DNA from: Selaginella tamariscina
Lineage: Eukaryota; Streptophyta; Lycopodiopsida; Selaginellales; Selaginellaceae
DNA: 64,000 nucleotides
Direction: 5' to 3'
Assembly (NCBI GenBank): GCA_003024785.1
Contig: PUQB01000023.1
Span: 235,508 to 299,507 of the forward strand
Shown here: positions 7,361 to 59,139 of the stretch, one piece after another
How the letters are laid out: every line of letters starts with the position of its first letter
How positions within the stretch are numbered: the first letter of the stretch is position 1
The notes under the pieces: model-generated
The model's database searches: none
What the model was told of the DNA's origin: nothing
What the model saw: the letters and a program-made list of their open reading frames with translations, nothing else
Translations under genes and position numbers: made by a program

Positions 7361-7377
7361 CCGAAGAGGTCCTTATG

Positions 7378-14045: not shown

Positions 14046-14099
14046 CTTGTATATATATATAGAGAGAGAGAGGGGGGGAGAAAGAGAGAGTACCATCTT

Positions 14100-28391: not shown

Positions 28392-28392
28392 A

Positions 28393-28435
28393 TGCACGTT
28401 GTAACTAAAGTGGGCATGATACGTGAAAATGGGAA
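28393..28435 (+). repeat. Left terminal inverted repeat, copy A
   Basis: Starts TGCACGTTGTAACTAAAGTG. All 43 bases are the exact reverse complement of 43723-43765. Confidence 0.95.
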
Positions 28436-28865
28436 TATAAATAAATTACTAATTAATACTTAAGTTTTAATTATTAATTAATCATTTAATTAATATGTAA
28501 TTAAGCCTTAAATATTAATTAATTATTAATTAATCCTTCAATAACCTTACTTAGTAAGGAATATTCCTAAAATATCTTAGAATATTCATATATTCTAAAA
28601 ATAGTTTACAATAATGAAGAATACTATCAAACATAATTACAAATGAAATCTTTCTTATCAACATATTAATTTTTTATAAATACTTTCTTTCTATCATACA
28701 AAAGAAATCTTTTCATTTTGTCTAAATCATCACTCTCCGGATTAATCAAATCATTTGGTCAATATCTTGATGTTGTTGCCACCACTTAACACTCTCACGA
28801 ATGCAATTGGGAGTTGCCATCCTTGTTAATACATAAGATGTGATAAGAGAAGGTCTGCATAAAGG

Positions 28866-29837
28866 CTCATCTAAAACTGACGTTCCTTAAGAATAATATA
28901 TAAAGCGCCCGGTTGCTATCCTTCATTTTATAAAATTCAATATCACGAGAAAGAAAAGCTTCAGGAAATGTATGATACGGTGGATACTGCTCACAAAAAT
29001 TTTCGAGATTCTTCTTTCTGAGGCACGTATCCAAGTAGTTCACTAGCTCATCATGATATCGGTATCAGAATATGGATCGAAAGTGATTGGATGAATACAA
29101 GCAATGTTTTGGTTGAGCATAGCCTTCTGAGGAGAGTCGTCTACTACTAGATATGTGCATTCTTCGTTATCCTTAAGCGACTGATCTCCCCATGAGTCCC
29201 AATTATTCTTTCATTCTTGAAGAAGTATGGCTTGCTTTCCTTTCTTATATTGTGAAATTCGAGAGGTTTATGACACATTCGCTGGTCAAAAATCCAATCT
29301 TTACGAATCACCTCTTCTGCAACACTACAATGTTTCTTAAGTAAATTCAACAGCGGTGTTAAGTTATGAATCTGCATGCATGACCAAATCCCCACAAGCG
29401 CACCCATCTCCTTAAGCTTTTGAAAGAGACGATCCAACCCTGGACGAAAAATAATATCATATCGAAATTTACCATGACAAGGAATGAAATCTCCTTGTTT
29501 GATTTTTCTATCCTCGGGCCTTTGTCGATGAAGCAGAACACCATTGACATCCAACAACACAATATGGCCATGAGTAACATGAGATAGCGTTGCCTCTTGA
29601 ATACTTTGCAAATCACTTGTTTGCTCCCTTTCACATTTATCCGTTGCCACTATTCGTTGCCTATCCCTTCATCATTTAATTGTACATCATCCTTACAAGA
29701 TTCAGATATTGCATGCGCTGAAGAAATTGATTTCGGAACTGAAGCCAATAAAAATGATGATGAAAAACTGAAGTGGCCCCCATGGTAACGATGTTTTGAG
29801 CTGCATTATTATCCATTTCCTGCATGAACTCTGTCAT
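28866..29837 (-). pseudogene. FCP1/CTD-phosphatase-like HAD protein (frameshifted)
   Basis: A reading from MTEFMQEMDNNAAQNIV (start at 29837) runs to a TGA at 28866-28868, about 320 codons with at least two frame changes. HAD motif I is LLDVNGVLLHRQRPEDR, with the nucleophile Asp at 29549-29551 and Asn where CTD phosphatases usually have the second Asp. It is followed by YDIIFRPGLDRLFQKL, and ALVGIWSCM as motif II. After a frame change near 29190 comes WGDQSLKDNEECTYLVVDDS, with the motif IV aspartates at 29136-29141. The C-terminal part reads LVNYLDTCLRKKNLENFCEQ. Active relatives dephosphorylate phosphoserine on the RNA polymerase II tail. The DxN change, also found in plant FCP1-like proteins, makes catalysis uncertain. 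A possible upstream exon (29886-29931, CNEIIENMDFQHCHE) follows a TTTTGCAG acceptor. At least four copies exist in the window. Confidence 0.7.
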
Positions 29838-30120
29838 TCTGACATGTGGCACAAGAAATTGTCGCCAAACCCCTCTCTTACCTCATGGCAATGCTGAAAA
29901 TCCATGTTCTCAATTATTTCATTACATCTGCAAAATGATAATTAGCTGACCTTAAAATTATCAAGGTATATTATTTACCTTGTTAATGTGTGACCCATGT
30001 TTGAACTAAAAGCTTCATTAATCCTTGAGAATTTATTTTCTGTACAAATATAAAAGAAATATACAAAAATGCCTTATGTTACACTCATTTACAACTATTC
30101 ATCACTCTATCAATTCATTA

Positions 30121-33100
30121 TCAATTCTTCTTCGCTATTACCTTCTGATGAGGCGAAGAAGGTCTAAGCCGCTTGTGAGATGGTTCAAGATCTTCTGCAT
30201 CTTCTATTGATGTTTCCATGGGTCCTGGAGTGTGCGAATGTTCTGTACTCCTCGAGATAACTTCCGGTCTAATATCTGATTGAAGTTCGTTCTCAGACTC
30301 CGAGATTGAACCAGATTCACCTTCAGAGCTATCGCACTTATCTGGAGGGAACTTTCTCAAATACGCCTTTATGGATTCGTTGGGGTACTCAGTTGAGACC
30401 CAATCTATCCACTTGTTCAGGTCCTCAACCATGGTCTTATCCTTTCAACGGCAAACACACATGTATGCCGAAGGTAACACTCCTTCAAGACGGACCCCCT
30501 AGTGCAGTAGTCAAAAACCCACGCATCACTGTGAGGACCCCTGATCAAGTTGACGATGCTCCGTGCCGCTTGACTTGTAATGTTTGGATAACGTACATTG
30601 CCGAATACGTCACTCATACCTATCGGTGTATCGGATGGAGGTTCAGGGCCGTTGGAGTGCAAACAGATGCCTGGCCAGTCATTTGGAAGCTTGAAATTGT
30701 TTGGCGCATTCCTAACAACCAAGTGAACAACAGTATCAATGCACTTGGGATTAGCATCGTTCATATAAAATCCTGTCCAACGATGTCTATTCTTCTTGGC
30801 GAAGGCGAAGGCAAAAGTATCGGTGACATGAGCAAGAATCAAGAAATAAATACCTGAAAAAGTAGGTATCAGTGAAGAGCGCAAGCATGAATTCAATAAT
30901 AAATACCTTCTATGTATATGCTTGCACGGCTAAGTTTCTCCACCAGATCCTCTAGTGCCCTATCTGTCGAAAGATTTTTTGACACCCGCCGATCCATCAC
31001 GAACAATTGAAACGGTTTCCTACAAGCAGTGATGTTACCCCATAAAGTCTCCGAATCTAACAACAAACATCTGTAGGGCTTGTCGTGATTCGTAGCATCC
31101 TCCTTTATAAGGTTCAATTCGGTTCTCCGCTGCTGAAGGACTGCCATAAGAGAAGGCGTCATCCCAATGTTCTCCTTTTTGGCGTTGGCGTGCAATAGAT
31201 TCTTGCCTAGATCTTCCGATTGGTTCACCCATTCGACAAGCATATCATCGTTCGTCACATGCAAATATTTGCTGACCTCTTCATATGTTGAAGTCGAGGT
31301 CCAACCCAGTTTGTGGCAGTGTATTCCCAACCACTCCTTGAAATGCCTGACCGTCTTCAACTCCATTGCCTTGAGATGAAAAGGAGAGGTTGGGCTGCTG
31401 TTATTAATTTGTAGTTTGCCATCGATCACCAAATCAGCCAAGACTTCCATCTCCTCCATCGTTGTTCCATTTAAAGGCTTCAACCATGTGAGCTTGAAAT
31501 CGTTGTCTACATCCTTTGTAGATTGAACAGACTTAGCCTTCGGCGTCTTACTGGGTTTCTTTGCAGACTTTTCTGAGGGCTCCCCTTCACTTGTCTGCTT
31601 CTTCTTCAGTGTTCCTTTTGAAAAGGATTCCATAATCCCCAACCATTTGGCAAAGATCCTATCTTCGGGGCAAGAAATCAACATCATCAGAAATGATGTT
31701 TCCTTCCCGCCCACCTGGGCAAAATCAACTGCTGCAATTTCTTCAACTCTCTGAGGAAAAAGACAGATTAATATACCGGCGAGATAAATCCCGCCCAAAC
31801 AATTTGCTTACCCGGTATTCCGCAGATTGTGTATTCCCTGCGGTAGCTCTTTGTGGTCGCTGAAGAGATTCCCACACGGCTCGCGTGTGTTTAAACTTCT
31901 CCCATATTTTGCTGTTGTAGTGGTTGGTGTCGGCAGCGTCCCATTCCGCCGATAACTTATGGTACTGCTCGATTGTGAGATTCGGCTTAGCTAAAAACGC
32001 CGATCTTTTTGTCAGCTTCTCACGGGTATGCTCGGAAAGTTTTGTTGCCATCGTTCCTTTGTTGTGTTCATCGAGAAGTCGTTGGGCTGCCGTTATTGTG
32101 TGCTGGCCACTAATGATGTAGTACTTGATAGATTTTATTCTCCGTCTGAATCTTCATGAGTTGTTCTGGTGTTGTGATCCAGACTTTGTCAGCACCCTTC
32201 CTTCTTTCATAGTATGGACACAAAACAGCATTATGTGGAACGGTATAAGAATTGTCGTCCTTCATCTTCTCCATGAGCTCAGCTACACGTTCCTGGTTGA
32301 GTGGCCTGTAATTGAAGTTTGGGTTGACGCTGCAATATTTAACCCTACAAGGATAAATCTTATCATCCAACATCATTTCCTTGTGACTTATTGCAGCATG
32401 AGATGCCACAGGTGCAGCTGACAAAACGATTGATGATTTTTCTTTTGCGATCCGAATCAACATGTGTGATCCCCGACTGCAGCTGTTCTAGTGTTCTCGG
32501 CACACTCTTCCAGCTCCCGAAGCTTCCTAAGCAAATTGAACGTGATCTGTAGAGAACCTGAGACCGAGCCACCTCTCAATCCCTTATGATGTCGCTGTGT
32601 TCTTCTTCAATGTGAAGAGGGAAGATTGCTCCACTTGCTGATTTTCTGTATTGTGAAGCAATATCTCCTGACAATACACCTACTCGATGAGTCTGAAGAT
32701 CTTCGAAGTAGACATCCAGATGGATCCCCTCCATAGATGGGCTTTCGTTGAGTTGAAGAAGAACTCCAAGGTCAACATCATTAGTGAACACGTGAACGTC
32801 ATTATCCACAAGTCGACAAAACCACCCGAGATTAATGTTGTAACTGACGACCTCTGGATCCGAGAACGTGACATTGGATGGAACAAGGCATATCTGTCGA
32901 GCATCGTCCAATCTGGGTTCGCAGCCTGCTTTCGGGTGCTTGACTAGCGAATCTACTTTCCATTGTTTTGCTTGTCCATGAGATGTGACAGAGGTTAATT
33001 TGACAGCAACCATGGTTGCTCCAATGCGCTTCCCATTTATCTTAAAATATGGCCAAGTTGATTCCAGAATCCCCCTGCCCATCTCTTCTCCTGCTCTTGT

Positions 33101-33248
33101 CTTTAATGTCACCTCAATTCCACATCTGAATACAAAAATGATTAGTTCAAGTATCCGAGTATAACAGATTTTATTTTAATTCTTACCCAGAATTTGACGA
33201 CGACTCCATACTAATGACTCGATCTCCTTGTTTGATCAAATCGTCCTT
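30121..33248 (-). pseudogene. ParB-like / DNA-methyltransferase-like fusion, 4 or more exons
   Basis: Exons with GT-AG introns: 33248-33187, 33125-31812, 31750-30907 and 30853-30121. The introns are 53-61 bp. The N-terminal region (33125-32580) holds a GRGI motif. The ParB/sulfiredoxin-like part (32463-32040) has KIYPCRVKYCSVNPNFNYRP, NQERVAELMEKM and, one frame over, ISGQHTITAAQRLL, which fits the ParB GEHRxxA signature. A lysine-rich linker lies near 31600. The C-terminal part carries SDAWVFDYCTRGSVLKEC followed by CVFAVE, resembling motif I (DxFxGxG) of N4/N6 DNA methylases, where motif I follows motif IV. The expected DPPY motif is not clear; the nearest match is FVMDRRV near 30990. Single-base frame changes occur near 32580, 32455, 32125 and 30440. 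The copy at 56590 keeps the missing A at the last site. ParB-methylase fusions are known in phages and bacteria. The tail is acidic and serine-rich. Confidence 0.55.
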
Positions 33249-33589
33249 CTGCAAAATAATACACTATAAATATAAATTATATAAAAACGCACACACACTT
33301 GTATAAACCCGAATATACAAAAATAATACACAGAGAGAAGTAGACGTAATTAACTGTCCGAAGCTCACATTTGTGTTAGTGCAAAGAAAGATAACATAGT
33401 CGTCATTAAAACTGTCCGAGCTCACATTTGTGGTGGTTTACAAGATGTTATCTCTTTTACTAAAAAATGTGAGAGAGCTCTGGACAGTTTTACATAGATT
33501 CCTAGCTTTTACTCGTATTATAAGAGATGATAAAAGTAAATAAAATGAGATATGCAACTTATATATACTAATACACATATATATTCACA
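33249..33589 (-). promoter_or_regulatory. Putative 5' region of the ParB/methylase-like gene
   Basis: An AT-rich spacer between the first recognised exon (acceptor TTTTGCAG at 33249) and the palindrome array. It holds a near-duplicated AACTGTCCGA(G)AGCTCACATTTGTG pair at about 33352 and 33411. An upstream leader exon must lie here or in the array, but I cannot place it or a TATA box. Confidence 0.4.
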
Positions 33590-35125
33590 TGGAATTAATC
33601 TCGCCACCCCTTCAATGCCTCCTGAAAGAGTGGGCGGGATTAATCTCGCCACCTTTCTGGAGGCCTTGAACGGGAGTGCGGAATTAATCTTGCCACCCTT
33701 CTCGGTCTCAGAGAGAACTGGGCAGGATTTATTTCTCACACCCCTTCAGTGACTCCAGAAAGGAGGCGGGATTAATCTCGCCCACCATGTAAGGATGGTT
33801 AAATGAATCTCGCCACCCTTCCCAGTCTCCATTGGTATGTTGTAAACCTTCTACGTCTTAGACAGAAACGTTTGGGATTGGTCCAACTCACCAATGGAGG
33901 AAAAAGGGAAGGGTGGCGAGATTCATTTCTCCAACAGGCATTGAAGACTCGGCGGGATTAATCCCGCCGCCCAGGGCCTTCACTCGATCCCTATGCGGCG
34001 GGATTAATCCCGCCGGACGCCAATTCCTGCGGAATCGGGCGGGATTAATTCCGACGCCTAGGCACTTCAGGCAGGCCAATGGCGGCGGGATAAATCCCGC
34101 CCGATTTCGAGCAGGGCATTGGCGTCTGCGGGATTAATCCCGCCTCCCAGGCCCTTCACTCGGGCCTTAGTCGGCGGGATTAATCCCGCCGAACGCCAAT
34201 GCCCTGTGCGAAATCTTGCGGGATTAATCCCGCCGCCTAGGCCCTTCAGGCAGGCCAATGGCGGCGGGATAAATCCCGCCCGATTCCGCGCAGGGAATGC
34301 GTACGCGGCGGGATTAATCCCGCCCACCATGTAAGGGATGGTGAAATTAATCCCACCACCCTTCTGGTTCCCTCCATTGGTATTTTGTAAACCTTCTCCG
34401 TCTCAGACAGAGTTAGTCGGGATTGATTCAACATACCAATGGGGTAATGAAGGTTCGGAGATTAATCTCGCCACCGGGTAATGAAGGTTCGGAGGCTAAT
34501 CCCGCCGCCCTCTCGTAAATCATGCGCTCACACATATATATTGGCTGCGGCATTTTTGAACAGGGATGGGTGGGGGCGGGATTAATCCCGCCGCCCAGGG
34601 AATTCACGCAGGACATGAACGGCGGGATTAATCCCGCCGCCCTCCGCGAAGGGCATGAGCGTGGGGCCGGATTAATCCCGGCGTTCATGTCCTGCGTGAA
34701 TTCCCTGGGCGGCGGGATTAATCCCGCCGCTCTACGACAAACCGAAGAGCGGCGGATTAATCCTGCCGCCCATTCCCTGTAAATGCCCTGCGCGGAATCC
34801 GGCGGGATTAATCCCGCCCATTAGAACCTTCACACAGGCCATTGCCGGCGAGATAAATCCCGCCGCATTCCGCGCAGGGCATGGATGAGCGGCGGGATTA
34901 ATCCCGCCGCCGAGGCCCCTCACGCAGGCTATGGGCGGCGGGATTAATCCCGCCGCTCTTCGGTTTGTCGTAGAGCGGCGGGATTAATCCCGCCGCCCAT
35001 AGCCTGCGTGAAGGGCCTCGGCGGCGGGATTAATCCCGCCGCTCACCCATGCCTGAAGGGCCTCGGCGGCGGGATTAATCCCGCCGCCATGGCCCCAACT
35101 ATATAGCGGCGGGATTAATCCCGCC
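33590..35125. repeat. Palindrome array 1 (GGCGGGATTAATCCCGCC)
   Basis: At least 22 copies of the 18-bp perfect palindrome or close variants, GC-rich and CpG-rich in AT-rich DNA. The first part (33590-33940) is degenerate. From 33951 the starts fall at 33951, 33997, 34038, 34084, 34127, 34173, 34217 and 34262, a period of 41-46 bp. Variants include a central ATAAAT. The spacers are also reused: 34594-34620 is the exact reverse complement of 34683-34709; 34731-34750 of 34957-34976; and 34921-34957 of 34974-35010, the last pair able to fold into a long hairpin. Apparent open frames with GGINPA and AGLIPP peptides are translations of the palindrome in two frames. The array lies just upstream of the minus-strand ParB/methylase-like gene. 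Confidence 0.95.
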
Positions 35126-35909
35126 GCTCGAGGGGCTTAGCGAGATAAAAACACACACATATATATGTGTGTGTGTGTATATATATGTATGTATGTATGT
35201 ATGTATAGGAGTGTACGTGTGTGTGCAAGAGATAGATAAATAAATAAACTTATACAGTACTGGTACACCTAATATATGTGTGTACATAGGTATATATATG
35301 TGTGTATATGTATATCGTGTGTATGCGTGTGAGCGAAACAAATAAAATCATACAGATAAACAAACACACACACACACATATATATACACAGGAGTGTGCG
35401 TGTGTGTGCAAAGATAAAACTAATAAATAAAATTATACAGATAAACACACATATATATGTGTGTATATAGATATATAATCTATAGAGAAAGAGAGAGAGT
35501 CTGTGAATATATAAGCATATATAAAACTAGTGTTGTATGTATGTATATATGGTATTATATAGGTATATATATGTATAGTGTATGCGTGTGTGAGCGAAAC
35601 AAATAAAATCATACAGATAAACAAACACACACACACACATATACATACACAGGAGTGTGCGTGTGTGTGCGAGAGATAAAACTAATAAATAAATAAAATT
35701 ATACAGATAAACACACACATATATATATGTGTGTATATTATGAATATATAAGCATATATATAAACTAGTGTTGTATACTATTTGTTAATATGCATTGATT
35801 ATATATATATATATATATATCTGTGTGTGTGTGTGTGTGTGTAAAGCAGTGCGCGTGTGTGTGGGAGAGATAGATCAATAAAAAAAAATTTACAGATACT
35901 GGTACACAT

Positions 35910-35940
<31 letters not shown>

Positions 35941-36200
35941 ATGTGTGTGTGTGTGTGTGTGTGTTGTGTGTGTGTGTAAAGCAAGATCAATAAAAAAAAT
36001 TTACAGATACTGGTACACATAATATATGTATGTATATATGTATATAGGTATATATATATATATGTATATGTATATCGTGTGTATGCGTGTGTGAGCGAAA
36101 CAAATAAATCATACAGACACATATACATACACAGGAGTGTGCGTGTGTGTGCGAGAGATAAAACTAAGAAAAAAAATTATACGCACACTCCTATACATAT

Positions 36201-36231
<31 letters not shown>

Positions 36232-36240
36232 GATCTCACC
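35126..36240. repeat. GT/TA-rich minisatellite block
   Basis: Tandem copies of a roughly 200-bp unit. Landmarks are CAGGAGTGTGCGTGTGTGTG, GAGATAAAACTAATAAATAA, ATACAGATAAACACACACAT and GCGTGTGAGCGAAACAAATA. They recur near 35210, 35390, 35590, 35650, 36080 and 36130. The unit is interspersed with (TG)n, (TA)n and (CATA)n runs. The frames through it are repeat artefacts. Confidence 0.85.
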
Positions 36241-37110
36241 TGTGTGCACAGCCGCCGCCGATTTCACAGCCGCCGCCTCTTGAAACCCTAAGAATATACC
36301 TAAACCCTAAAGGAATTAAATATATATATCAACCCTAATAGAATATTCCTTCTGAGAATATACTTAAACCCTAAAAAGAATAAAATATAGATTCGCCCTA
36401 AACGAATATTCTTTCATTATATTATTAGCGCGTGCGTGTGTGTGGGTGTATCACATACACCTCAAAAATATAAATCATGCAGGGATTTAACATGTGTGTG
36501 TCCATGAGAGTGTTAAAGTTTCATGTGTACACATTGCATATATTAATACACATAATATATACATACACACGTGTATACACACAGACATACACACATATTA
36601 CATGGGTTTAGGGTTTAGGGTTAGGTAGGGTTTTGGATTTAGGATGGATCATGCATGGTGTGTATGTATGAGAGAAGAGAGAGTGTTGAAAAATTATTTT
36701 TGTACACATTGCATATATTAGTACACATATATACTTACACATATTATACACAGATATACATACATAGTATATGAGAGAAGAGAGACAGTACATATTAATA
36801 TGGATCATGCATGGTGTGTATTATACACACAGACATACATACATATTAGTACATAATATTAGAGAGACCGAGTACATATTATAGATCATGCATGGTGTGT
36901 ATGTTTGAGAGAAGAGAGACAGTACATATTAACATGGATCATGCATGGTGTGTATGTATGAGAGAAGACAGAAAGTACACATATATACATACAGAGTACA
37001 CATATATACATGCACACGTGTATACACACAGACATACATACATATTACATGAGTAAATTCATTGTGTTACATATTAGGGTTTAGGGTTTAGGTTAGGGTT
37101 TAGGGTTTGC
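36241..37110. repeat. CATGCATGG-containing tandem repeats and telomere-like words
   Basis: 36250-36280 has two AGCCGCCGCC boxes. Units of about 50 bp with GGATCATGCATGGTGTGTAT and GAGAGAAGAGAGACAGTACA occur near 36645, 36803, 36883 and 36937. GGGTTTAGGGTTTAGGGTTA-type telomere-like runs lie at 36604-36630 and 37076-37108. ACCCTAAA words lie near 36290-36390. No gene is visible. It sits between the palindrome arrays, on the side of the plus-strand gene. Confidence 0.7.
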
Positions 37111-37359
37111 TCCCAACAAGCTTAATATAAATATTACACATGTAAATTCAATGTGTTACATATACACAGATTGAGTACATATATCATACATGCGTTGAAC
37201 ATGATGTTTTCAATAAAGAAGCAACATATTTCTTCAGTTTGGTTTAGGGTTGTGCATGTGTGTGCATATGTGTTTTTGTAAGTTCTTGTAATGCGTGTGT
37301 AAATTTATGATTGTGTTTATATATGTGTGCAAAACAAACATCGAATAATTAAGAAAATA

Positions 37360-38150
37360 AAATTAATAAACACACTAGGAACATATTTTAAATTATACAT
37401 AATAATATATGATTTTATCTAATATATAGCCATATATAGTTTTAATAATATAATTAATTTAATATTGATAAAAAGGTTTAACATTGAAATATTCTTGAAA
37501 TAATAAGAAATTAATTGAGAAAATCCCATTAATATATACAAATGTAAATTAAGTACTCAAATAATTAACTAAATTAATTATCATAATCATGTTTAATATT
37601 GGAATATTCTTGGAATAATAAGAAAATAATAAAGAATATCCCATTAATATAAAGAAGATTAATTACTCAAGTAATTAAGGAAATGATATTAATATATATT
37701 ATTAAAACTATATATGACTATATATTAGATAAAATGATGTATTATTATGTATAATTTAAAATATGTTCATAGTGTGTATTAATTTAATATTGATAATAAG
37801 GTTTAACACATGAATATTCTTGAAATAATAACAAATTAATTGAGAAAATCCCATTAATATATACAAATGTAGAATAATTACTGCAATAATTAAGAACAAG
37901 ACTAATTTAATTATGATAATCAGGTTTAATATTAGAATATTCTTCAAATATTAATAAAATAAAGAATATCCCATTGATACTAGGAAATGAAAACTAAATA
38001 CTCGAGTAATTAAGAAAATAATAATAATAAACAGACTATGAATATATTTTAAATGATACATAATAATATCAATTTATTTATTGTATAAGTATATATTTAT
38101 ATATATATAATAATATAAATATACTTGAATACTAAGAATGTAGAATATAG
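37360..38150. repeat. AT-rich direct and inverted repeats
   Basis: 37372-37450 (ACACACTAGGAACATATTTT onward) recurs inverted at about 37690-37780. The block with GAATATTCTTGAAATAATAA and AATCCCATTAATATATACAA recurs directly at about 37480, 37590, 37810 and 37940. The same block appears in reverse orientation at 63100-63880, so it belongs to the element. No coding capacity. Confidence 0.75.
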
Positions 38151-38159
38151 TCTAAAATT

Positions 38160-38696
38160 TCGTAATATTAAACAGCTTGAATCACTTGAATAACATTAAA
38201 TGCAATTTTAAAATACTCATTGGAACTGGAGAGTATATATGTCAGAGTGTCGGATATTTGTGTCAACTCATCTTAAATTTTATTTTCTGTTCTTTTTAAA
38301 AATTTGAATTTCTGACATATGTATTGTCGGTCTGACATATAAATTTGAAAATGCATTTAATTTCCCACTCAAATTCAGATCTGGTTCTTTCTCCGGCAAG
38401 GGTTTCTTCATTTCTGTATTTTTCACTCTTTAGATCTTCTTTTTTCTTCATAGTGATCATCTCAGGAGCGAGATTAAATTGGGTGCTATTCTTTATAGGA
38501 AAGCACGGCGCCTTCAGTGCTGTTTACAAGTAAGTATTATAAACAAATTTAAAAATACTTATTAAGATTCACTCTCTTACATTCTCTCTTAAAATTACAA
38601 TTTAGGGGTTTAGAAATGCATTAGGATTATAATATATTCCGTTAGGGATTTATCACGTTTAAATATCCTTTTAACTTAATATTCTAGGTTAACCGG
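38160..38696 (+). promoter_or_regulatory. Leader/promoter region of the DUF7869-like gene
   Basis: This stretch is preserved in reverse orientation at about 62640-63080, unlike the fast-changing repeats beside it. It contains TCTGACATATGTATTGTCGG and CTGACATATAAATTTG and ends in a strong splice donor, TACAA|GTAAGT, at 38530. The next good acceptor, TTATGTGCAG, is at 39627 just before the gene. I infer a non-coding first exon ending at 38530 and an intron of 1.1 kb that contains palindrome array 2. The short frame 38345-38533 is probably leader, not protein. Confidence 0.45.
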
Positions 38697-39482
38697 GGCG
38701 GCGGGATTAATCCGGCCATTTCTTTTTCGCCTCTTTGAAGAAGTGGCGGGATTAATCCCGCCACCATCTCCCGGGCAATGCTTCTCCGCCACTGAAAAAG
38801 AGTGGCGGGATTAATCCCGTCGATAACCTTCTCAACTGATGAAGAGTTACCAGAATTTATTAGAAAGAGTTGTCGGCGGGATTAATCCCGCCAACCATTT
38901 TAGGAGGCAGGGAAGGGGTGGCGGGATTAATCTCGCCACCACTTCACTGTTTTAAAGATTTGGGGACAGGATTTATCCCGAGATCTCTTTGAAATCATAG
39001 TTTTGGAGAGAGTTATGTGCGGATTTAATCCCGCCACCCATTCCCCGTCGTAAGAATTGTGGGCGGGATTAATCCCGCCTTGGACTCCCTCCGACAAGGA
39101 AGAGCCGGCGGGATTAATCCCGCCGCCTCTTCCTCCGACGAGGAAGGGAGTCCGGCGGGATTAATCCCGCCGACTCTCTCCGGCGAGGATGAGTCGGCGG
39201 GATTAATCCCGCCGGACTCCCTTCCTCGTCGGAGAGAGTCGGCGGGATTAATCCCGCCGGACTCCCCCCGAGGAGGAAGAGGCGGCGGGATTAATCCCGC
39301 CGGCTCTTCCTTGTCGGAGGGAGTCCAAGGCGGGATTAATCCCGCCGACTCTCTCCGAAGGGGTTGAGTCGGCGGCGGGATTAATCCCCCGACTCTCTCC
39401 GAAGGGGTTGAGTCGGCGGCGGGATTAATCCCGCCGACCGTTCCTCGTCGGAGGGATTCGTTGGCGGGATTAATCCCGCCCA
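38697..39482. repeat. Palindrome array 2 (GGCGGGATTAATCCCGCC)
   Basis: Same palindrome as array 1. The last ten copies are strikingly regular, starting at 39062, 39107, 39154, 39196, 39241, 39284, 39329, 39374, 39418 and 39463, i.e. steps of 42-47 bp. The 24-29-bp spacers are related to each other and nearly self-complementary (GACTCCCTCCGACAAGGAAG, then forms such as CTTCCTCCGACGAGGAAG). The six or so copies at 38697-39040 are less regular and partly decayed. The array lies in the inferred leader intron of the plus-strand gene. Confidence 0.95.
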
Positions 39483-39633
39483 TCAGTTGTATTAATCAAA
39501 CATGAGATATTATCTCTAAACATAATTATGTATTATTGCATATGCATATTATTAAGTAACCGTAATTCAGATTTCTTAAAATATTGCATAAACAGATATC
39601 ATAAATAATACAATTATTTATGTGCAGGACAAT

Positions 39634-42600
39634 ATGTTTAATACTGGAGATAAAGTATGTCTTCTTCGGAACAACGAGATAGTTGGCATGGAACTGTGGA
39701 AGTTCGAGATAATAATGCATCATGTCACAATATTTCCCAAGGATCTTGTGTGTACGTATGGGTGAACACCATTTTCAAGCATGTTGAGGTTCTGGGAATG
39801 GAATTTGAGGAGGGTTCTCCTGTATTGTGGAATTTGGATGAAGTCAAGGCTGACACAAAATGCAGAGTCACAAACAAATAGTAGCACGAGTTTACCAGAT
39901 GATGGCTTGCCTGCTGTGATGGATGAGGTGATTCTCTTTCTTCGTGAGATTGAAGTCGGAAGAGGCATCATCACAGCTATAAATCCAATGGAAGCAGTGT
40001 CAGAAGAGAAACTAGGGTCCGACTTCGTGGGTAGTTGTGACAGAGGTTTCACCTAATGGCACATTGTATCCTGGATCCCTCGTGAGGTGGCGAACATCTG
40101 AATTAAGACGGCAAGATGGTTCAACATATTCTGGGTTGGATTTCAATAATAACAACCCGGAAGAACAACTCATATTTGAAGAGGTTCCTTGCATTGGTCC
40201 TATTGTAAGAAAAAGGCGATTCATGGGTTGTAGATCTTCCCCTGCAAGTTTCAGCAAGAGGGTAAAGATGGATCCTACATCTTCCGAAAGTGTTACGAGC
40301 ATTTCCACGATTGACTGTTGCAAGAAGAAGTGTTGTCAGATGGCAGACCGGAATGAAATTACCCAATGTAGACATGTCTTTCGTATGCTCACCCAAAAGC
40401 AAAGGCATGAGTTTGTATATGCTGCACTAACTGGGTGTATTGATGGAATGGCCTCGGACACAGGTTATCAGAGTACATCCATGGTATTTAATAAGGTGGC
40501 CATCTGCTTCAAAGCTTGGTACAGTATATACGGGATCCCAAAGACCACGTTCTACCGTCGGAGGGATGAGTGGCTAGATGGAGCGCGAACCTCAGTTCAT
40601 GGGAACACTCTTGGTCAAAACCCGCTCTCACATCATGGCAGCCATAGAGATACTCAAGGCTTTTGTGGAAGCAAATGCAGACAGGATGCCTCACAAATGC
40701 CGAACCACAAATGCAGGGGTCAGGGAAAATCTCAAGGTTTTACCTTCAATCTACACTCAATTGAAACTGTGTGAACATGTGAACAAGTGCCTCAGTTTGA
40801 TGGGGCTCCAAGCAATCTGCACTGGTACCTTCAACAACATATGGAATACTCATTTTAAGGATGTGGAGATTGCAAAACACTCTAGCTTTTCTAAGTGTGA
40901 CACTTGTACATCATTGAAGGCTGCAGAGGCTTGTGCAAAAACCTTGGTGGAGATCACTACCATTCAAAGGAAGATGGAGGCCCACATGATTGCACAACAA
41001 ACTTGTCGGTCTCAGTACTATGCACACCGCATGCTTTCTGTGTCACGCCCATCAGAGTACCTGTGCTTGATCCATGACAAGATGGATCATTCAAAGACCA
41101 GCATTCCAAAGCTCTTTGCAACACCAAAGTGCCTTGGAAATGTCATGAAACTTCCGATTTCTTTAACAGGTGTGCTAACACATGGACACGGTTGTGAGTC
41201 ATATGGACACTTTTCACTTCCACATTGGTCTAGCGACTCCAATTTCACTATTGGGTCGTTAGCCATGTGTTTCAGAAACCTTGAAGCCCACTCACAGACA
41301 AATCCTATCAGTGATCTCAAAGTGAAGAAACAACACCTTCAACCTTTACATAATGCTCTCATGAACACGTCTGCACTTGAGGCTACTTGGGAATATGAGA
41401 GGCATTGTCAGCAACCTGCACAAAAAACAGATGGCCCTGTTGAGAGTTCAGGTTCAGTGGAGGGATCTAGCTCAAATAGTGTACATGTGTCCTCAACATC
41501 AAATAAGCTTCCTCGTCATTTGCTTTTACAGATGGATAATTGTGCAGGCGAGAACAAAAATAGGTAAATCATTTTACTTAAGGGTTTCTCAAGCTCATAC
41601 TTACTTTTATTTTCTAGATATGTGCTAGCATACTTGTCAATGCTTGTTGCCAAAGGTGTGTTTGAAACAATCACGCTCAGTTTCCTTATGGTTGGTCACA
41701 CTCATGAAGATATTGATGCGTTCTTCAGCAAGGTCTCCAACTCTACAAAAAGGACAAGTGCACTTACCTTACCGCATATGATGAATCTTTTTGAAAATTG
41801 CATCTCCAAAAAAAGTTGTGCTTTGCTTGTGACTGAGGTGCCAGACTTCAAAAAATTTCTCAAGGAGTATATAAAAGAAGGGAGTGATTCTTTAGTTGGT
41901 CACCTTGTGCCGCTACAATTCTTTTTCTCCATACGAGATGGTATACCTATTATGCAGTACAAGTTACGGCCATCAGAGCAGGAGTGGTTACCGAAAGAGG
42001 GCTTAATGCTCTTCAAAAGTGGAGAGGATGGAAAGCCACTTCTCCCAGAAGGACAACCAGACCCTATTCCATTGAGTGCCCAGCTCAAGGAACAAGAGGT
42101 TATTATTGATGGCATCAAAAAAATGTGGCATGGGTTCAAAAATCGATGCCAAAGAATTCTGATAAGGCAACTGGTTACTCAGAACTATATAAGCATGTGG
42201 TCAACTATTGGGAGACTGTTGTTCGAGAGTTGGAAGGGCCTACTGTCACAAGTACAGAATTGCAACACCCTTTCTGGCCTAAAACAAGGTGGCGAGAGGA
42301 GATTGAAATGACATCACTGAGCACAGACGACATAGAAGCCAGTAGTGATGTGGAAGTGCAAACCCCACACTTTGTTGGACAAAGGAACCAAAAACCTAAA
42401 GCATACTTTGATTGCTGCAAGGATCTTCAAAAACTAATGATGGTTCTCATTACTCCAGATGCGTCATATAATCAGCCTATTTGGATGGGTCAAATTATCG
42501 ACACACCTGAAGTAATCACAAAAAATAGTATTGTTAAGGTTGCATGGTTCAAACCACAAAAAAGGCGACACGAGAAGGAGAGCGAAAGATATAATGGATG

Positions 42601-42745
42601 CCTAGAGAAAACATGGTCTCCCAATCAAAAAGACCCAGCATGTTTTATAAATGTTAAATCCATTCGATATGGGTGGATGTCAAGAAGCGTTGATAAAGTC
42701 ACGATTAACAAAACTGCAAGGGAATGTATGTTTTCTGAAGCTTAA
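39634..42745 (+). pseudogene. DUF7869-like protein, probable transposase, copy A
   Basis: Begins after acceptor TGTGCAG (39627). Possible starts are 39634 (MFNTGDKVCLLRNNEIVG) or 39657. The N-terminal region has a GRGI motif (about 39960). A cysteine cluster CCKKKCCQ is at about 40315-40340. A middle segment reads CDTCTSLKAA. LLQMDNCAGENKNR precedes a 54-bp intron (41564-41617, GTAAAT...TTCTAG). The second exon gives YVLAYLSMLVAKGVFETITL and GHTHEDIDAFF (41694-41726). From memory, DNxxGENKN...GHTHxDxD matches DUF7869, an RNase H-like family found in repetitive eukaryotic genes. The acidic residues fit a DDE-type nuclease, though activity is unproven to my knowledge. The end is EARECMFSEA-like, at 42745. 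Frame changes near 39860, 40025, 40608 and 42118 break it. Copy B is intact at these points but broken elsewhere. Confidence 0.75.
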
Positions 42746-43206
42746 AGCAATTACAAAATTATAAAATATCATATATTTAATATTCATAATTATTAAAACT
42801 CTTTAATAATAGTACCAAATTGTATACTTAACTATATAAATTTAAAAAATGATATGGAAGATTGACTATATTATAGGATTTATATATATATTATTACTAC
42901 TACAAATTTTAATTAATAATGTTATATTTAAATATTAATATTTTAATAACAACATCAATATTTATATAATGTACCTCTTATGCTCTTCCTTAATTGTTAT
43001 ATTAGGCAATATATTATATAATTTAATACATTCTACTTTTTAATGTTATTAATTTTTGTTCAATGAATGCTATAATTTATTAAAGGGTAGAATACAAAAT
43101 AGAATATTCTAAAGAATATTCTCTTTTCAAACATATATTCTAAAAAATTCCTTTAATATTAGAAAATGCTAATTAAATAGCTAAAATTGCTAATTATTAG
43201 GAAATG
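42746..43206. other. AT-rich right subterminal region, copy A
   Basis: Shared almost base for base with 46692-47157. It contains paired AGAATATTCT motifs (43100-43125) and the word GCTAAAATTGCTAATTATTA near the end. Probably 3' untranslated and subterminal sequence of the element. Confidence 0.7.
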
Positions 43207-43722
43207 NNNNNNNNNNNNNNNNNNNNNNNNNNNNNNNNNNNNNNNNNNNNNNNNNNNNNNNNNNNNNNNNNNNNNNNNNNNNNNNNNNNNNNNNNNNNNN
43301 NNNNNNNNNNNNNNNNNNNNNNNNNNNNNNNNNNNNNNNNNNNNNNNNNNNNNNNNNNNNNNNNNNNNNNNNNNNNNNNNNNNNNNNNNNNNNNNNNNNN
43401 NNNNNNNNNNNNNNNNNNNNNNNNNNNNNNNNNNNNNNNNNNNNNNNNNNNNNNNNNNNNNNNNNNNNNNNNNNNNNNNNNNNNNNNNNNNNNNNNNNNN
43501 NNNNNNNNNNNNNNNNNNNNNNNNNNNNNNNNNNNNNNNNNNNNNNNNNNNNNNNNNNNNNNNNNNNNNNNNNNNNNNNNNNNNNNNNNNNNNNNNNNNN
43601 NNNNNNNNNNNNNNNNNNNNNNNNNNNNNNNNNNNNNNNNNNNNNNNNNNNNNNNNNNNNNNNNNNNNNNNNNNNNNNNNNNNNNNNNNNNNNNNNNNNN
43701 NNNNNNNNNNNNNNNNNNNNNN
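43207..43722. other. Assembly gap (N)
   Basis: 516 unknown bases between GGAAATG and TTCCCATTTTC. Copy B crosses from GGAAATGG directly into the right terminus, so few real bases need to be missing here. The gap length may be nominal. Confidence 0.95.
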
Positions 43723-43765
43723 TTCCCATTTTCACGTATCATGCCCACTTTAGTTACAACGTGCA
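43723..43765 (-). repeat. Right terminal inverted repeat, copy A
   Basis: Ends TTAGTTACAACGTGCA and is the exact complement of 28393-28435. Confidence 0.9.
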
Positions 43766-43769
43766 TATA

Positions 43770-46691
43770 ATAATGCATCATGTCACAATATTGTCCAAGG
43801 ATCTTGTGTGTACGTATGGGTGAACACCATTTACAGCATGTTGAGGTTCTGGGAATGGAATTTGAGGAGGGTTCTCCTGTATTGTGGAATTTGGATGAAG
43901 TCAAGGCTGACACAGAATATGCAGAGTCACAAACAAATAGTAGTACGAGTTTACCAGATGATGGCTTGCCTGCTGTGATGGATGAGGTGATTCTCTTTTT
44001 CGTGAGATTGAAGTCGGAAGAGGCATCATCACAGCTATAAATCCAATGGAAGCAGTGTCAGAAGAGAAACTAGGGTCCGACTTCGTGGTGTAGTTGTGAC
44101 AGAGGTTTCACCTAATGGCACATTGTATCCTGGATCCCTCGTGAGGTGGTGAACATCTGAATTAAGACGGCAAGATGGTTCAACATATTCTGGGTTGGAT
44201 TTCAATAATAACAACCCGGAAGAACAACTCATATTTGAAGAGGTTCCTTACATTGGTCCTATTGTAAGAAAAAGGCGATTCATGGGTTGTAGATCTTCCC
44301 CTGCAAGTTTCAGCAAGAGGGTAAAGATGGATCCTACATCTTCCGAAAGTGTTACGAGCATTTCCACGATTGACTGTTGCAAGAAGAAGTGTTGTCAGAT
44401 GGCAGACCGGAATGAAATTACCCAATGTAGACATGTCTTTCGTATGCTCACCCAAAAGCAAAGGCATGAGTTTGTATATGCTGCACTAACTGGGTGTATT
44501 GATGGAATGGCCTCGGACACAGGTTATCAGAGTACATCCATGGTATTTAATAAGGTGGCCATCTGCTTCAAAGCTTGGTATAGTATATACGGGATCCCAA
44601 AGACCACGTTCTACCGTCGGAGGGATGAGTGGCTAGATGGAGCGCGAACCTCAGTTCATGGGAACACTCGCTTGGTCAAAACCCGCTCTCACATCATGGC
44701 AGCCATAGAGATACTCAAGGCTTTTGTGGAAGCAAATGCAGACAGGATGCCTCACAAATGCCGAACCACAAATGCAGGGGTCAGGGAAAATCTCAAGGTT
44801 TTACCTTCAATCTACACTCAATTGAAACTGTGTGAACATGTGAACAAGTGCCTCAGTTTGATGGGGCTCCAAGCAATCTGCACTGGTACCTTCAACAACA
44901 TATGGAATACTCATTTTAAGGATGTGGAGATTGCAAAACACTCTAGCTTTTCTAAGTGTGACACTTGTACATCATTGAAGGCTGCATAGGCTTGTGCAAA
45001 AACCTTGGTGGAGATCACTACCATTCAAAGGAAGATGGAGGCCCACATTGATTGCACAACAAACTTGCCGGTCTCAGTACTATGCACACCGCATGCTTTC
45101 TGTGTCACGCCATCAGAGTACCTGTGCTTGATCCATGACAAGATTGATCATTCAAAGACCAGCATTCCAAAGCTCTTTGCAACACCAAAGTGCCTTGGAA
45201 ATGTCATGAAACTTCCGATTTCATTGACAGGTGTGCTAACACATGGACACGGTTGTGAGTCATATGGACACTTTTCACTTCCACATTGGTCTAGCGACTC
45301 CAATTTCACTATTGGGTCCTTAGCCATGTGTTTCAGAAACCTTGAAGCCCACTCACAAACAAGTCCTATCAGTGATCTCAAAGTGAAGAAAACACCTTCA
45401 ACCTTTACATAATGCTCTCATGAACACATCTGCACTTGAGGCTACTTGGGAATATGAGAGGCATTGTCAGCAACCTGCACAAAAACAGATGGCCCTGTTG
45501 AGAGTTCAGGTTCAGTGGAGGGATCTAGCTCAAATAGTGTACATGTGTCCTCAACATCAAATAAGCTTCCTCGTCATTTGCTTTTATAGATGGATAATTG
45601 TGCAGGCGAGAACAAAAATAGGTAAATCATTTTACTTAAGGGTTTCTCAAGCTCATACTTACTTTTATTTTCTAGATATGTGCTAGCATACTTGTCAATG
45701 CTTGTTGCCAAAAGTGTGTTTGAAACAATCACGCTCAGTTTCCTTATGGTTGGTCACACTCATGAAGATATTGATGCGTTCTTCAGCAAAGTCTCCAACT
45801 CTACAAAAAGGACAAGTGCACTTACCTTACCGCATATGATGAATCTTTTTGAAAATTGCATCTCCAAAAAAAGTTGTGCTTTGCTTGTGACTGAGGTGCC
45901 AGACTTCAAAAAATTTCTCAAGGAGTATATAAAAGAAGGGAGTGATTCTTTAGTTGGTCACCTTGTGCCGCTACAATTCTTTTTCTCCATACGAGATGGT
46001 ATACCTATTATGCAGTACAAGTTACGCCATCAGAGCAGGAGTGGTTACCGAAAGAGGGCTTAATGCTCTTTAAAAGTGGAGAGGATGGAAAGCCACTTCT
46101 CCCAGAAGGACAACCAGACTCTATTCCATTGAGTGCCCAGCTCAAGGAACAAGAGGTTATTATTGATGGCATCAAAAAATATGTGGCATGGGTTCAAAAA
46201 TCGATGCCAAAGAATTCTGATAAGGCAACTGGTTACTCAGAACTATATAAGCATGTGGTCAACTATTGGGAGACTGTTGTTCGAGAGTTGGAAGGGGCCT
46301 ACTGTCACAAGTACATAATTGCAACACCCTTTCTAGCCTAAAACAAGGTGGCGAGAGGAGATTGAAATGACATCACTGAGCATAGACGACATAGAAGCCA
46401 GTAGTGATGTGGAAGTGCAAACCCCACACTTTGTTGGACAAAGGAACCAAAAACCTAGAAGTAATCACAAAAATAGTATTGTTAAGGTTGCATGGTTCAA
46501 ACCACAAAAAAGGCGACACGAGAAGGAGAGCGAAAGATATAATGGATGCCTAGAGAAACATGGTCTCCCAATAAAAAAGACCCAGCATGTTTTATAAATG
46601 TTAAATCCATTCGATATGGGTAGATGTCAAGAAGCGTTGATAAAGTCACGATTAACAAAACTGCAAGGGAATGTATGTTTTCTGAAGCTTA
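43770..46691 (+). pseudogene. DUF7869-like protein, copy B (5'-truncated)
   Basis: Same protein as copy A without the first 30 or so codons. The open frame 44195-44989 crosses the point (about 44670, ACTCGCTTGG) where copy A has lost two bases. It is then stopped by a TAG at 44987 (CAGAGG to CATAGG). Further damage: one-base changes near 45050, 45110, 45390 and 46027, TTTATAG instead of TTTACAG before MDN (45586), and loss of about 85 bases near 46455 relative to 42400-42500. The 54-bp intron (donor 45622, acceptor TTCTAG at about 45675) is conserved. GHTHEDIDAFF is present at about 45752. Confidence 0.8.
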
Positions 46692-47150
46692 AAGCAATTA
46701 CAAAATTATAAAATATCATATATTTAATATTCATAATTATTATAAAACTCTTTAATAATAGTACCAAATTGTATACTTAACTATATAAATTTAAAAATGA
46801 TATGGAAGATTGACTATTATTATAGGATTATATATATATATTATTACTACTACAAATTTTTAATTAATAATGTTATATTTAAATATTAATTTTTAATAAC
46901 AACATCATATTTATATAATGTACCTCTTATGCTCTTCCTTAATTGTTATATTAGGTAATATATTATATAATTTAATACATTCTACTTTTATAATGTTATT
47001 AATTTTTGTTCAATGAATGCTATAATTTATTAAAGGGTAGAATACAAAATAGAATATTCTAAAGAATATTCTTTTCAAAATATATTCTAAAGAATATTCC
47101 TTTAATATTAGAAAATGCTAATTAAATAGCTAAAATTGCTAATTATTAGG

Positions 47151-47191
47151 AAATGGGACTATAGCCATGCCCATTTTAGTTACAACTTGCA
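47151..47191 (-). repeat. Right terminal inverted repeat, copy B
   Basis: AAATGGGACTATAGCCATGC, then CCATTTTAGTTACAACTTGC(A): a diverged version of the terminus at 43723-43765. Confidence 0.8.
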
Positions 47192-49046
47192 TATAGGTAC
47201 CTTTCAGGTGGATTTGTAAGTGTCAAGGGCATTTGACCAGTTAAAAGAGTTCCTGACAACTCCACCATTGCTTCAATACCAAATTTTACTCGTCCATTCA
47301 TTTTACGAGTAGATGCATCAGATATTGGCATTGGTGGTGTGTTGATGCAAACCGATGCTATGGATCCTTCAATTCGACACCGGTGGCTTACATTAGTCGA
47401 GTATTCGAGCCTGCTGAGCAAATTATTACACTACTGAAAAAGAATGCCTTGCTGCTGTTTGGGGTTTTGAATGACTTCGTGCCTACTTACATAGGAGTGA
47501 AACACTTTTGGAGTGTGATCATGCTGCAGTCACTTCCTTATTAAAATGGATTGAATTTAATGGGTTATGTAGCTAGATGGGCATTACGTCTTCAAGTATA
47601 TAACTTTAAAGTGGTGCATAGGCCTGGGCAAACAATGGTGGATGCAGATGCACTTTCTCGAGCACCCCTTTCCGATTCCACTTTGCATGCTCATGCAGTA
47701 GCTGTAGTGTTCAGTTTGATACATGCCCCTCAGGTATTGATGTCGATTTACCATCCTTGGAACAGTGGCAGGATGCTAAAAAACATGAAGCATGGACGAG
47801 GCAATTGCGTGATGTGTTTGCAAATCTGTCTTTTGAACCTCAGTTTCAACAATATCACACTCAATTTCAACTTCAGAATGGTTTATTATGTTTTATTAGA
47901 ACAAATCCAAAAGACAAATGGTGTTTGGTTGTACCCTTTACATATGTTCCACACCTTTTTCGAGCATATCATGATTCACCTATTATTGGAGGTCATCTTG
48001 GTCACCAACGAGTGTTGGAGAAGCTTCGCCGATCCTTTTTTAGCCCAGCATGCGTGGTGATATGATCAGGTATATCCAAAGTTATCCCATTTGTCAAACT
48101 CGAAATTCCTCTATGACTCGGGCCATGGGGGTGTTAGAATCCATTAGTGTCTCTTGCCCTTTTGAGTTAATTACAGTGGATTTAATGGGACCTTTTCCAC
48201 ATTCTTCTCAAGGTAATCAGTACATCATTGTGGTATCTAATTATTTAACTTGTTAGGTGGAGGTTGGTGCCCTTCGGATGCAACTACCATGTCAACAGCT
48301 TTGTTTCTATTCAATAATGTGGTTTTGCAGTATTCTTGTCCAGAACGGATGTTATCAAATAATGGCCCCGCTTTCATTGCAGAGGTATTTTGAGTGTTGT
48401 GTAAAAGTTAGGGGTAAAACATTCATTTGCCTCTCCATATCATCCATAAACTAATGGTTTAGTGGAGCGATTAAATCGGACCTTCAAGGGTATGATCTTA
48501 AAGTATATGAACTTCAATCATACTGACTGGGATTGGTATTTGCGATGCTTGAGATTTGCTTATGTAACATACATTTAGAGTTCGATTGGCATCTCTCCAT
48601 TCAAGGCATTGTATGGATTGATCTTAAGTTACCTAGTGAATTGGGTTATCATTGAATTTGCCACGTGCCGAGGATGCAAAGATGTGGGCTTGACATTTGG
48701 ATGCTGTTTTGCCTCTTACACGTAGAGTCTCTGAACATCTTGGTCGAGCTTAAATACGGCAGCAATCTTCTTACAATGCACGACATTCAAATTCCACCAG
48801 ATTTTGCTAACGGTGACTTGTATGTTTTCCCAAGTTGCTTGCAACTGGCTTATTACATAAGTGGCTTGGTCCCTACCGAGTACTTCGAAAGGTTGGTCCT
48901 CAGGTGTATCAAGTACAGTTAGTGGAATTTCATGAAGTTTGTCGTTTGAGACCCGTTGAGTACATTCAGTCATACCTTAGATAAATCACATAAATCTAGG
49001 AGCATCATATCCATCACCATCTACACAGCCACAGAGGGGAGGATAA
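47192..49046 (+). pseudogene. Ty3/gypsy relic (RNase H and integrase)
   Basis: Starts in the RNase H region (AFDQLKEFLTTPPLLQYQ at about 47230). It continues with YVARWALRLQVYNFKVVHRP and DADALSRAPL (47551-47690). The integrase zinc-binding region follows (HDSPIIGGHLGHQRVLEKLR, about 47970-48030), then the core with FELITVDLMGPFPHSS (about 48160-48210). Many stops and frame changes disrupt it. The 5' two thirds (gag, protease, most of RT) are missing. It is a different lineage from the chromovirus at 7383-13467. It leads directly into an LTR at 49047. Confidence 0.8.
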
Positions 49047-49239: not shown

Positions 49240-49557
49240 GTATTTTAATAACAACATAAATATTTATATAATGTACCTCTCATGCTCTTTATAACATTTA
49301 TATTAAGCCCATACAATTTTAAATATAATATTTATAATTTAATATCTTCTACTTTTATAATGCTATCAATTTTTGTCCACTAATGTTCTAAAAAATATTC
49401 TATCTTTAAACATATATTCTAAAGAATATATTTTCATTAAACATATATTATTTTAAATAATATACCTTTAATATTAAAAATTACTAATCAAATTACTAAA
49501 TTTGCTAATTATTAAGAAATGGGATTATATGCATGCCCATTTTAGTTCCAACATGCA
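49240..49557 (+). mobile_element. Right-end remnant of the giant TIR element
   Basis: TATTTTAATAACAACATAAA onward matches 46895-47191, including AATATATTCT words, GCTAATTATTAAGAAATGGG and a right terminus ending TTCCAACATGCA at 49557. The gypsy relic abuts it at 49239/49240, so the retrotransposon probably inserted into this copy. Confidence 0.75.
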
Positions 49558-49860
49558 TGTCCTACAAAGGTACATATTATCCTCAATGGGAGCAACCCAT
49601 GTATGTATGTGACATGCAGTGTTTTTGGGGATTTGTGAACTTCTAAAACGAACCAAGGCATTGATAGTCAAACTTTCCACAAGGCTACATAGTCTCAATG
49701 TTGCATCAAAGAAGTTAGACTTGCTCACCAACCTGATAAACTAGACTGTCTTTATGATACCAATTAGTAGTTGTCTTTTGATGTTCTTGTGCCTCCAAAA
49801 GATGTTGATGAAACATTGTTTGGACATACTGAAGATGGTCGATCTTCAACAGGCAGATTT
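49558..49860. other. Unassigned sequence
   Basis: Plus-strand reading gives a short piece resembling a polyprotein (DVDETLFGHTEDGRSSTGRF), with no family signature. Probably another element fragment. Confidence 0.3.
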
Positions 49861-54249: not shown

Positions 54250-54290
<41 letters not shown>

Positions 54291-54645: not shown

Positions 54646-54770
54646 TCAATTTGATGGGGCTGTAAGCAATCTGCACTAGTACCTTTAATAACATTGAAGG
54701 CTGTAGAGGCTTGTGCAAAAACCTTGGTAAAGGTCAATGCCATTCAAAAGAAGATGGAGGCCCTGATTGG
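54646..54770 (+). pseudogene. DUF7869-like fragments, scrambled
   Basis: TGCCTCAATTTGATGGGGCT matches 44850, and GGCTGTAGAGGCTTGTGCAA matches 44980, with the bases between deleted. The block ends at GATGGAGGCCC, where HAD-like sequence begins (TGATTGGATGAATACAAGCA). Two unrelated breakpoints within 125 bp show a scrambled copy. Confidence 0.7.
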
Positions 54771-59000: not shown

Positions 59001-59139
59001 TAATGGCTAAATCACTTTATTAAAATGCACATACCTCAGTTCTGGCACCACCACCATAGTTTTACAGGGCTTATTGGCATTCACTCAGAAGATTAAGATA
59101 AGGTTATAAAAGTAAATAAATGATAAAATGAAATACTTA

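Follow-up and report, generated by a model that had tools for sequence, protein, structure and literature searches.

The 64,000-nucleotide stretch of Selaginella tamariscina DNA analysed here (hereafter, the window) probably contains members of one family of large DNA transposons, bounded by terminal inverted repeats (TIRs) and mobilised by a protein of the DUF7869 family acting as a DDE/D transposase. The telomere-type CCCTAAA repeats, the gypsy element and the protein tree described below agree with a land-plant genome. The longest copy (B) runs from position 28392 into an assembly gap, and at least five further partial copies are found in the window. The anatomy, the repeated copies and the assignment of two proteins to the DUF7869 and NIF families are direct observations. 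An intact element would measure about 15 kb and feature an imperfect inverted repeat of about 27 bp at each end. Its left half would carry, on the minus strand, a HAD/NIF phosphatase-like gene and a large gene termed ParB-like; its central region, two arrays of an 18-bp palindrome repeated about every 45 bp; and its right half, on the plus strand, the DUF7869 gene. With the same confidence as for the transposon as a whole, we regard the window as a nest of copies which were inserted into one another and then decayed. The features are as follows.

5990..7382, plus strand: copy A, left end and HAD gene, 88% identical to copy B (self-comparison).
13468..14052, plus strand: continuation of copy A beyond a nested gypsy element (self-comparison).
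28392..28434, plus strand: left terminal repeat of copy B; the first 27 bp are common to the right ends.
28903..29641, minus strand: HAD/NIF (FCP/SCP-type phosphatase-like) gene, conserved part, frame-broken (PF03031).
30417..33232, minus strand: ParB-like gene (label unsupported), in several exons or frames, with in-frame constraint relative to copy F.
33633..35125, no strand: palindrome array 1, GGCGGGATTAATCCCGCC and near copies at a spacing of about 45 bp, 5' of the ParB-like gene.
38700..39480, no strand: palindrome array 2, immediately upstream (5') of the exons coding for DUF7869.
39626..42745, plus strand: DUF7869 gene, probable DDE/D transposase, with frame breaks (PF25273 on two ORFs).
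43207..43722, no strand: assembly gap of 516 N, expected to hide the right end of copy B.
43724..43766, minus strand: inverted left-type end at a contig edge, joined to an internal part of copy C and distinct from the right end of copy B.
43767..47192, plus strand: copy C, comprising a truncated DUF7869 gene and a right end of its own (self-comparison).
47166..47192, minus strand: right terminal repeat of copy C.
49241..49558, plus strand: copy D, right-end fragment (self-comparison and end alignment).
49532-49558: right terminal repeat of copy D.
52938..54641, plus strand: copy E, part of the HAD gene joined to the right-end region, a deletion derivative.
54764..63817, no strand: copy F, which combines parts of the HAD, ParB-like and DUF7869 genes with remnants of the arrays; the segment 60839-63817 is inverted.

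The initial annotation described a 15.4-kb unit bounded by perfect 43-bp inverted repeats. The arms are indeed exact, as 28392-28434 is the reverse complement of 43724-43766 at 43/43 positions, but they do not bound one unit. The right arm starts one base after the only gap in the window and matches the left end of copy B at 43/43 positions; it is a left-type end located behind the gap, and its reading as the second end of a single unit was rejected. The true right ends lie at 47192 (copy C) and 49558 (copy D). In end alignments, the left end of copy B matches the right ends of C and D at 25/27 and 24/27 positions, values that fall to 26/43 and 24/43 over 43 bases, while the left end of copy A matches them at 22/27 and 21/27. 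The two right ends are alike at 38/43 positions, and the left ends of A and B at 22/22 and 24/27. These scores define an imperfect terminal repeat of about 27 bp and identify the right 43-bp arm as left-type and inverted. Inverted repeats are thus present at both end types (left, A and B; right, C and D) and follow the pattern 5'-ATGCA(C/A/T)GTTG...GGGCATG, in which ATGCA is found in 5/5 ends. The 27-bp pattern occurs at five sites in the window, compared with a mean of 0.00 in 100 shuffles, which excludes chance; among viral contigs it was met in one only, a match taken as fortuitous.

The right end of copy B itself should lie about 37 bases beyond 43206, within the gap. The inverted left end joins copy C at the position equivalent to 39709, within a DUF7869 exon, and the perfect right arm would be a by-product of one of the nesting events, or of a faulty join, at the contig edge. 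As claimed in the initial annotation, other ends lie beside the same genes, since the left end at 5990 adjoins the HAD gene, as does that of copy B, and the right end at 47192 adjoins a DUF7869 gene. Copy D comprises only the last 300 bp or so, downstream of the DUF7869 gene, and copy E includes the last part of this gene, but its terminal repeat is cut short. The existence of a multi-gene TIR family is supported, while its right border and the length of 15.4 kb had to be corrected. Within the 64-kb window, no copy retains its two ends together with the two flanks, and hence no target duplication was seen; nor can one be derived from the five flanks, three of which begin with ATA outward and two of which do not, as judged by eye.

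Self-comparison revealed that 39709-43206 is repeated at 43767-47155, in pieces that are 98.5% and 97.0% identical; copy C extends past this repeat through GGGACTATAGCCATGCCCATTTTAGTTACAACTTGCAT to 47192. Copy F, which is 72-90% identical by piece, features HAD pieces, a ParB-like segment (56499-59021) and DUF7869 parts at 59594-59903 and, inverted, at 60839-63817. Several other repeats are interspersed with the copies. A gypsy element showing reverse transcriptase, capsid-like and chromodomain matches, with LTRs 93.8% identical, is nested in copy A (7380-13468). A gypsy-like fragment, recognised by eye, occupies 47193-49240, separating the right end of copy C from the copy D fragment, and suggests the insertion order D, then gypsy, then C. 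At 54637-54769, a truncated right terminal repeat directly adjoins an internal segment of the DUF7869 gene; this joint, somewhat similar to that at 43766/43767, perhaps reflects an aberrant insertion or a self-insertion. Unrelated repeated blocks, 72-91% alike, some inverted and associated with telomere-type repeats, fill 20617-28210 and end just left of the element.

The HAD-like gene reported in the initial annotation belongs to the NIF type. PF03031 scores 34.7 bits on the unmended ORF 29147-29668 and 46.3 bits on a hand-joined reading, both above the Pfam cut-off of 21.8. By score, the protein shares this domain with the NIF/FCP/SCP-type HAD phosphatases. NIF-type HAD phosphatases carry a DxD motif; the element's protein reads DVNG instead, which makes its phosphatase activity uncertain. 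Sequence comparison of the HAD protein with the PDB gave nothing credible.

The ParB/methylase-like name of the second minus-strand gene came from motif reading alone and found no profile support. The protein has no Pfam match at E≤5, none of 7522 candidate sequences is related at E≤0.001, and only weak, non-ParB matches were found in NCBIfam, PDB sequences and PHROGs. Neither name, ParB or methylase, is supported by the Pfam, relatives, NCBIfam, PDB and PHROGs searches, none of which returned a ParB match. In the available passages of a ParB-fold survey, no word begins with plant or transpos (PMC12704722). The N-terminal part of the protein scored 4.3 bits against the profile of the DUF7869 N-terminal domain (best of 200 shuffles, 3.2), which is not significant.

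Constraint was estimated from dN/dS ratios between copies in the window, obtained by simple counting without transition correction and compared with shifted frames. Non-coding controls gave 1.14-1.79 and 0.64-0.85, with one frame at 0.64 (P=0.045). The middle part of the ParB-like gene gave 0.24 (P=1.2e-8; shifted frames 0.81 and 1.21), clearly indicating in-frame constraint; values were 0.37 for the C part (0.81, 0.51) and 0.55 for the N part (0.72, 0.69). HAD values were 0.41 for B/A (0.65, 0.85), 0.32 for B/E (0.25, 1.47) and 0.55 for A/E (0.65, 0.39). Constraint on the HAD gene thus appears moderate or mixed, as both B/E and A/E are lower in one shifted frame.

The plus-strand gene matches PF25273 (DUF7869) on two ORFs, at 50.2 and 95.3 bits (Pfam cut-off 26), confirming the DUF7869-like gene inside the unit on both exons. 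A GT-AG intron (41564-41617), the sequence of which is seen in copies B and C, separates the two ORFs. The protein is a member of the family by score; the Pfam entry names no function. A first sequence search found eight relatives, and an alignment search, in which scoring was confined to the 8000 candidates with the most words in common, raised the number to at least 91 at E≤1e-3. PF25273 is matched by 60/60 aligned relatives. Named relatives come from Riccia (liverwort), Ceratodon (moss), Mytilus (mussels), Saccostrea (oyster), Branchiostoma (lancelet) and Tubulanus (ribbon worm), and one is an MMETSP transcript. The Tubulanus protein carries a fused kinase domain, so that not all DUF7869 members need be transposases. 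In a tree built from 78 of the 94 sequences (16 were dropped for coverage), the window protein groups with the relatives P0001 and P0015 (0.999), within a clade of support 1.0 that holds the Riccia (liverwort) and Ceratodon (moss) members. Profile searches of viral contigs yielded no DUF7869 relative among 23 stretches (8-row alignment) or 19 stretches (60-row alignment). In genome contigs, three relatives were found among 43 stretches (L001, L002 and L003); these contigs are filed as bacterial but probably are of eukaryote origin, and L001 features a 963-codon open frame. L001-L003, only 4.3-6.4 kb in length, show neither a HAD nor a ParB-like gene.

The DUF7869 genes of the window are frame-broken. 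Between copies, dN/dS is 0.37 in the C part (shifted frames 1.16, 1.23) and 0.49 in all three frames in the N part; for the core, B and C differ by 1.0 synonymous and 8.0 replacement changes (ratio 2.20). As constraint between the window copies appears weak or absent, the case for constraint on DUF7869 rests on its relatives. Conserved columns, taken over 60 alignment rows in the numbering of P0013, include D526 (52/52), D664 (57/58), E703 (56/59), D704 (59/59) and D706 (59/59), with spacings of 138 and then 39-42 residues. A structure was predicted for P0001, which shares 48% identity with the joined protein of the window over 73% of the latter (57 rows; mean pLDDT 80.9, pTM 0.75). The model features strands 186-194, 220-227 and 233-238, followed by helices 246-261, 280-285 and 289-303, strand 347-353, helix 360-373, strand 379-385 and helix 392-407. 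Of the matching acids, D192 sits towards the end of the first strand, strand 347-353 ends on D353, and the last helix opens with E392, D393 and D395. Acids at these places are usual for DDE enzymes. Judged by the order of its elements, the model shows an RNase-H-like succession of strands and helices. The predicted structure and the conserved columns agree with an RNase-H-like core with three acidic residues, although the third acid is ambiguous. Identification of the DUF7869 protein as the transposase, proposed in the initial annotation, is strengthened by the RNase-H-like order in the model of a relative, the conserved D-D-E/D residues, the presence of several copies and the terminal repeats. 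DUF7869 is the best candidate for the transposase, probably of the DDE/D type.

Sequence comparison of DUF7869 with the PDB gave nothing credible. When hand-joined (with one guessed residue), its N terminus matched a profile of 14 relatives at 1.2e-7; as a single open frame it scored 3.0 bits against the same profile, which is not significant. PF26133 is a precomputed domain in 14/91 relative rows. The N-terminal domain of the relatives resembles Transposase_23 (TNP1/EnSpm, PF03017), with matches in 4/60 of them at E≤0.1, the best of which (6.6e-4, 19.9 bits) lies below the cut-off of 21. Besides DUF7869, the only other transposon-related family among the 25 of 26 Pfam families listed was a single weak Transposase_32 (E 0.066).

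The two palindrome arrays noted inside the unit were both recovered in copy B. The 18-bp palindrome GGCGGGATTAATCCCGCC has 25 exact occurrences, all of them in copy B. Allowing up to three mismatches, the window contains 52 sites, of which 40 belong to copy B and 12 to copy F, compared with a mean of 0.00 in 100 shuffles. Among 39 sites, 30/38 successive spacings measure 40-47 bp, and 24/37 two-step sums fall within 80-100 bp, spanning 85-92. The palindromes of copy F differ by 24 transitions and 10 transversions. Between the two arrays lie short plant telomere-type repeats (TTTAGGG; 36298-36311 and 36607-37105). An AT-rich inverted repeat with 83-bp arms, 95% identical, occupies the element centre (37370-37777) and recurs in copy F. 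Among viral contigs, the palindrome was met in one only, taken as chance.

Comparable arrays were looked for on the three contigs in a post hoc and small comparison. L003 ends in an 89-bp tandem unit containing two other palindromes, the starts of which are 45, 44 and 45 bp apart (4972-5162), beside another DUF7869 gene. L001 carries three sites of a third palindrome upstream and three poorer sites downstream, with four mismatches each, neither set being spaced at 45 bp; L002 has no repeated palindrome. Relative to 20 shuffles, palindrome counts were 12 in L001 (mean 7.2, largest 13), 12 in L002 (15.2, 24) and 20 in L003 (8.9, largest 17), the only contig above shuffles. As no HAD or ParB-like gene was found on these contigs, DUF7869 would be slightly favoured over the ParB-like protein as the binder of the palindromes.

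Across the window, numerous 1-2 bp indels separate the members of young repeat pairs. This suggests that some assembly errors remain, and part of the frame breaks may have the same origin. In a global alignment of 39709-43206 and 43767-47155 (3375 aligned bases, 37 substitutions), 23 of the 24 gap events involve 1-2 bp. It is somewhat unlikely, yet worth weighing, that faulty assembly around the gap produced both the tandem duplication and the inverted left end. The gap lies between the two repeat copies, and small indels are frequent in the duplicated pair (0.65 gap events per substitution, compared with 0.04-0.16 in four older copy pairs). However, a young pair of gypsy LTRs located well away from the gap reaches 1.62, indicating that indel noise is general, and a simple doubled overlap would not be expected to place a left-type end at the joint. 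A chance composite, in which a smaller DUF7869 transposon happens to neighbour other repeats or HAD and ParB-like genes unrelated to it, is very improbable. Copy C consists only of a DUF7869 part and the right end, copy A is limited to the left end, the HAD gene and a short stretch past it, and neither accessory gene is seen on the short contigs L001-L003. However, copy F combines parts of all three genes with array remnants, HAD is linked to the same right-end region in copy E, and both left ends (A and B) adjoin HAD. A set of copies sharing just the DUF7869 gene and the TIR, the pattern that the initial annotation had set against its 15-kb unit, was not found in the window, where copy F carries parts of all three genes.

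The element might also be a divergent member of CACTA/EnSpm (CMCT), with DUF7869 as a strongly diverged CACTA transposase, a reading that we consider improbable. It would account for the TNP1/EnSpm-like N terminus, a domain which can occur in the CACTA transposase according to the available part of PMC2613891, as well as for the large size and the repeated palindromic motifs. In the same source, ATA is the duplication of a published CACTA element, and three of the five flanks described above begin with these letters. The Transposase_23 score, however, remains below the cut-off, no tnp2 match is found among the 25 of 26 Pfam families listed, and the conserved termini read ATGCA..TGCAT rather than CA..TG, the exact last base not being fixed without a target duplication. 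In the accessible passages of PMC12730594, the CMCT clade has as its hallmarks C(2)C and H(3-4)H motifs located between second D and last E, CA..TG ends in most cases and 2-5 bp target duplications. Neither motif is found in the D664-D706 stretch of DUF7869, the conserved CxxC being placed ahead of the first D, and the five ends read ATGCA rather than CA..TG, subject to the exact terminal base. The clade comprises CACTA, Mirage, Chapaev, Transib, Plavaka, ESTA and Lanisha; the CMCT motifs, ascribed to Lanisha as well in these passages (PMC12730594), distinguish it from DUF7869. The element resembles EnSpm/CACTA as a large plant TIR element with a perhaps, though weakly, TNP1-like N-terminal domain and repeated motifs that an element protein likely binds, and differs in its termini, in lacking C(2)C/H(3-4)H and, among the families listed, a tnp2 match, and in having internal rather than subterminal arrays. 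Size, invoked in the initial annotation against the known superfamilies, is a weak argument, since a 20.5-kb CACTA element has been published (PMC2613891, in the part available).

DNA transposons that have captured genes for chromatin or DNA modification are described in the accessible passages of PMC12730594, such as fungal TET/JBP elements and Vandal MuDR elements encoding an anti-silencing protein. These likewise combine a transposase with accessory genes, although their transposases and accessory proteins differ from those of the DUF7869 family. The 2015 Repbase list of superfamilies, in the part available, gives names only, so that DUF7869 content cannot be read from it (PMC4455052). Searches for the name DUF7869 and the motif VGHTHED found no paper in the literature searched, Repbase Reports aside.

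We favour the large TIR transposon, in which DUF7869 would bind the ends of about 27 bp and mobilise the element through a cut-and-paste mechanism. The arrays would be control binding sites near the 5' ends of both large genes, bound by the N-terminal domain of DUF7869, perhaps TNP1/EnSpm-related, and/or by the ParB-like protein, and such binding may steer expression, silencing or synapsis. The phosphatase-like protein would be the product of an accessory gene, and both accessory genes may help or protect the element.

The element family is a candidate for a new superfamily of DDE transposons. More tentatively, DUF7869 may represent an undescribed DDE/D transposase superfamily spanning bryophytes, other plants and animals, with dyad arrays of its own, to which the family in the window would add HAD- and ParB-like genes kept under selection as transposon genes; in this joint reading, possible though short of probable, the arrays would comprise two palindromes per 89 bp or so, with family-specific letters, putatively bound by an element protein in the way that subterminal repeats are bound by CACTA proteins. 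If this is true, DUF7869, a family spread over plants and animals, would gain a transposase function, many hypothetical genes would be re-labelled, and repeat annotation would gain a missing superfamily. Ordered palindrome arrays beside a transposase gene would also offer a test bed for self-control of the element or its escape from silencing.
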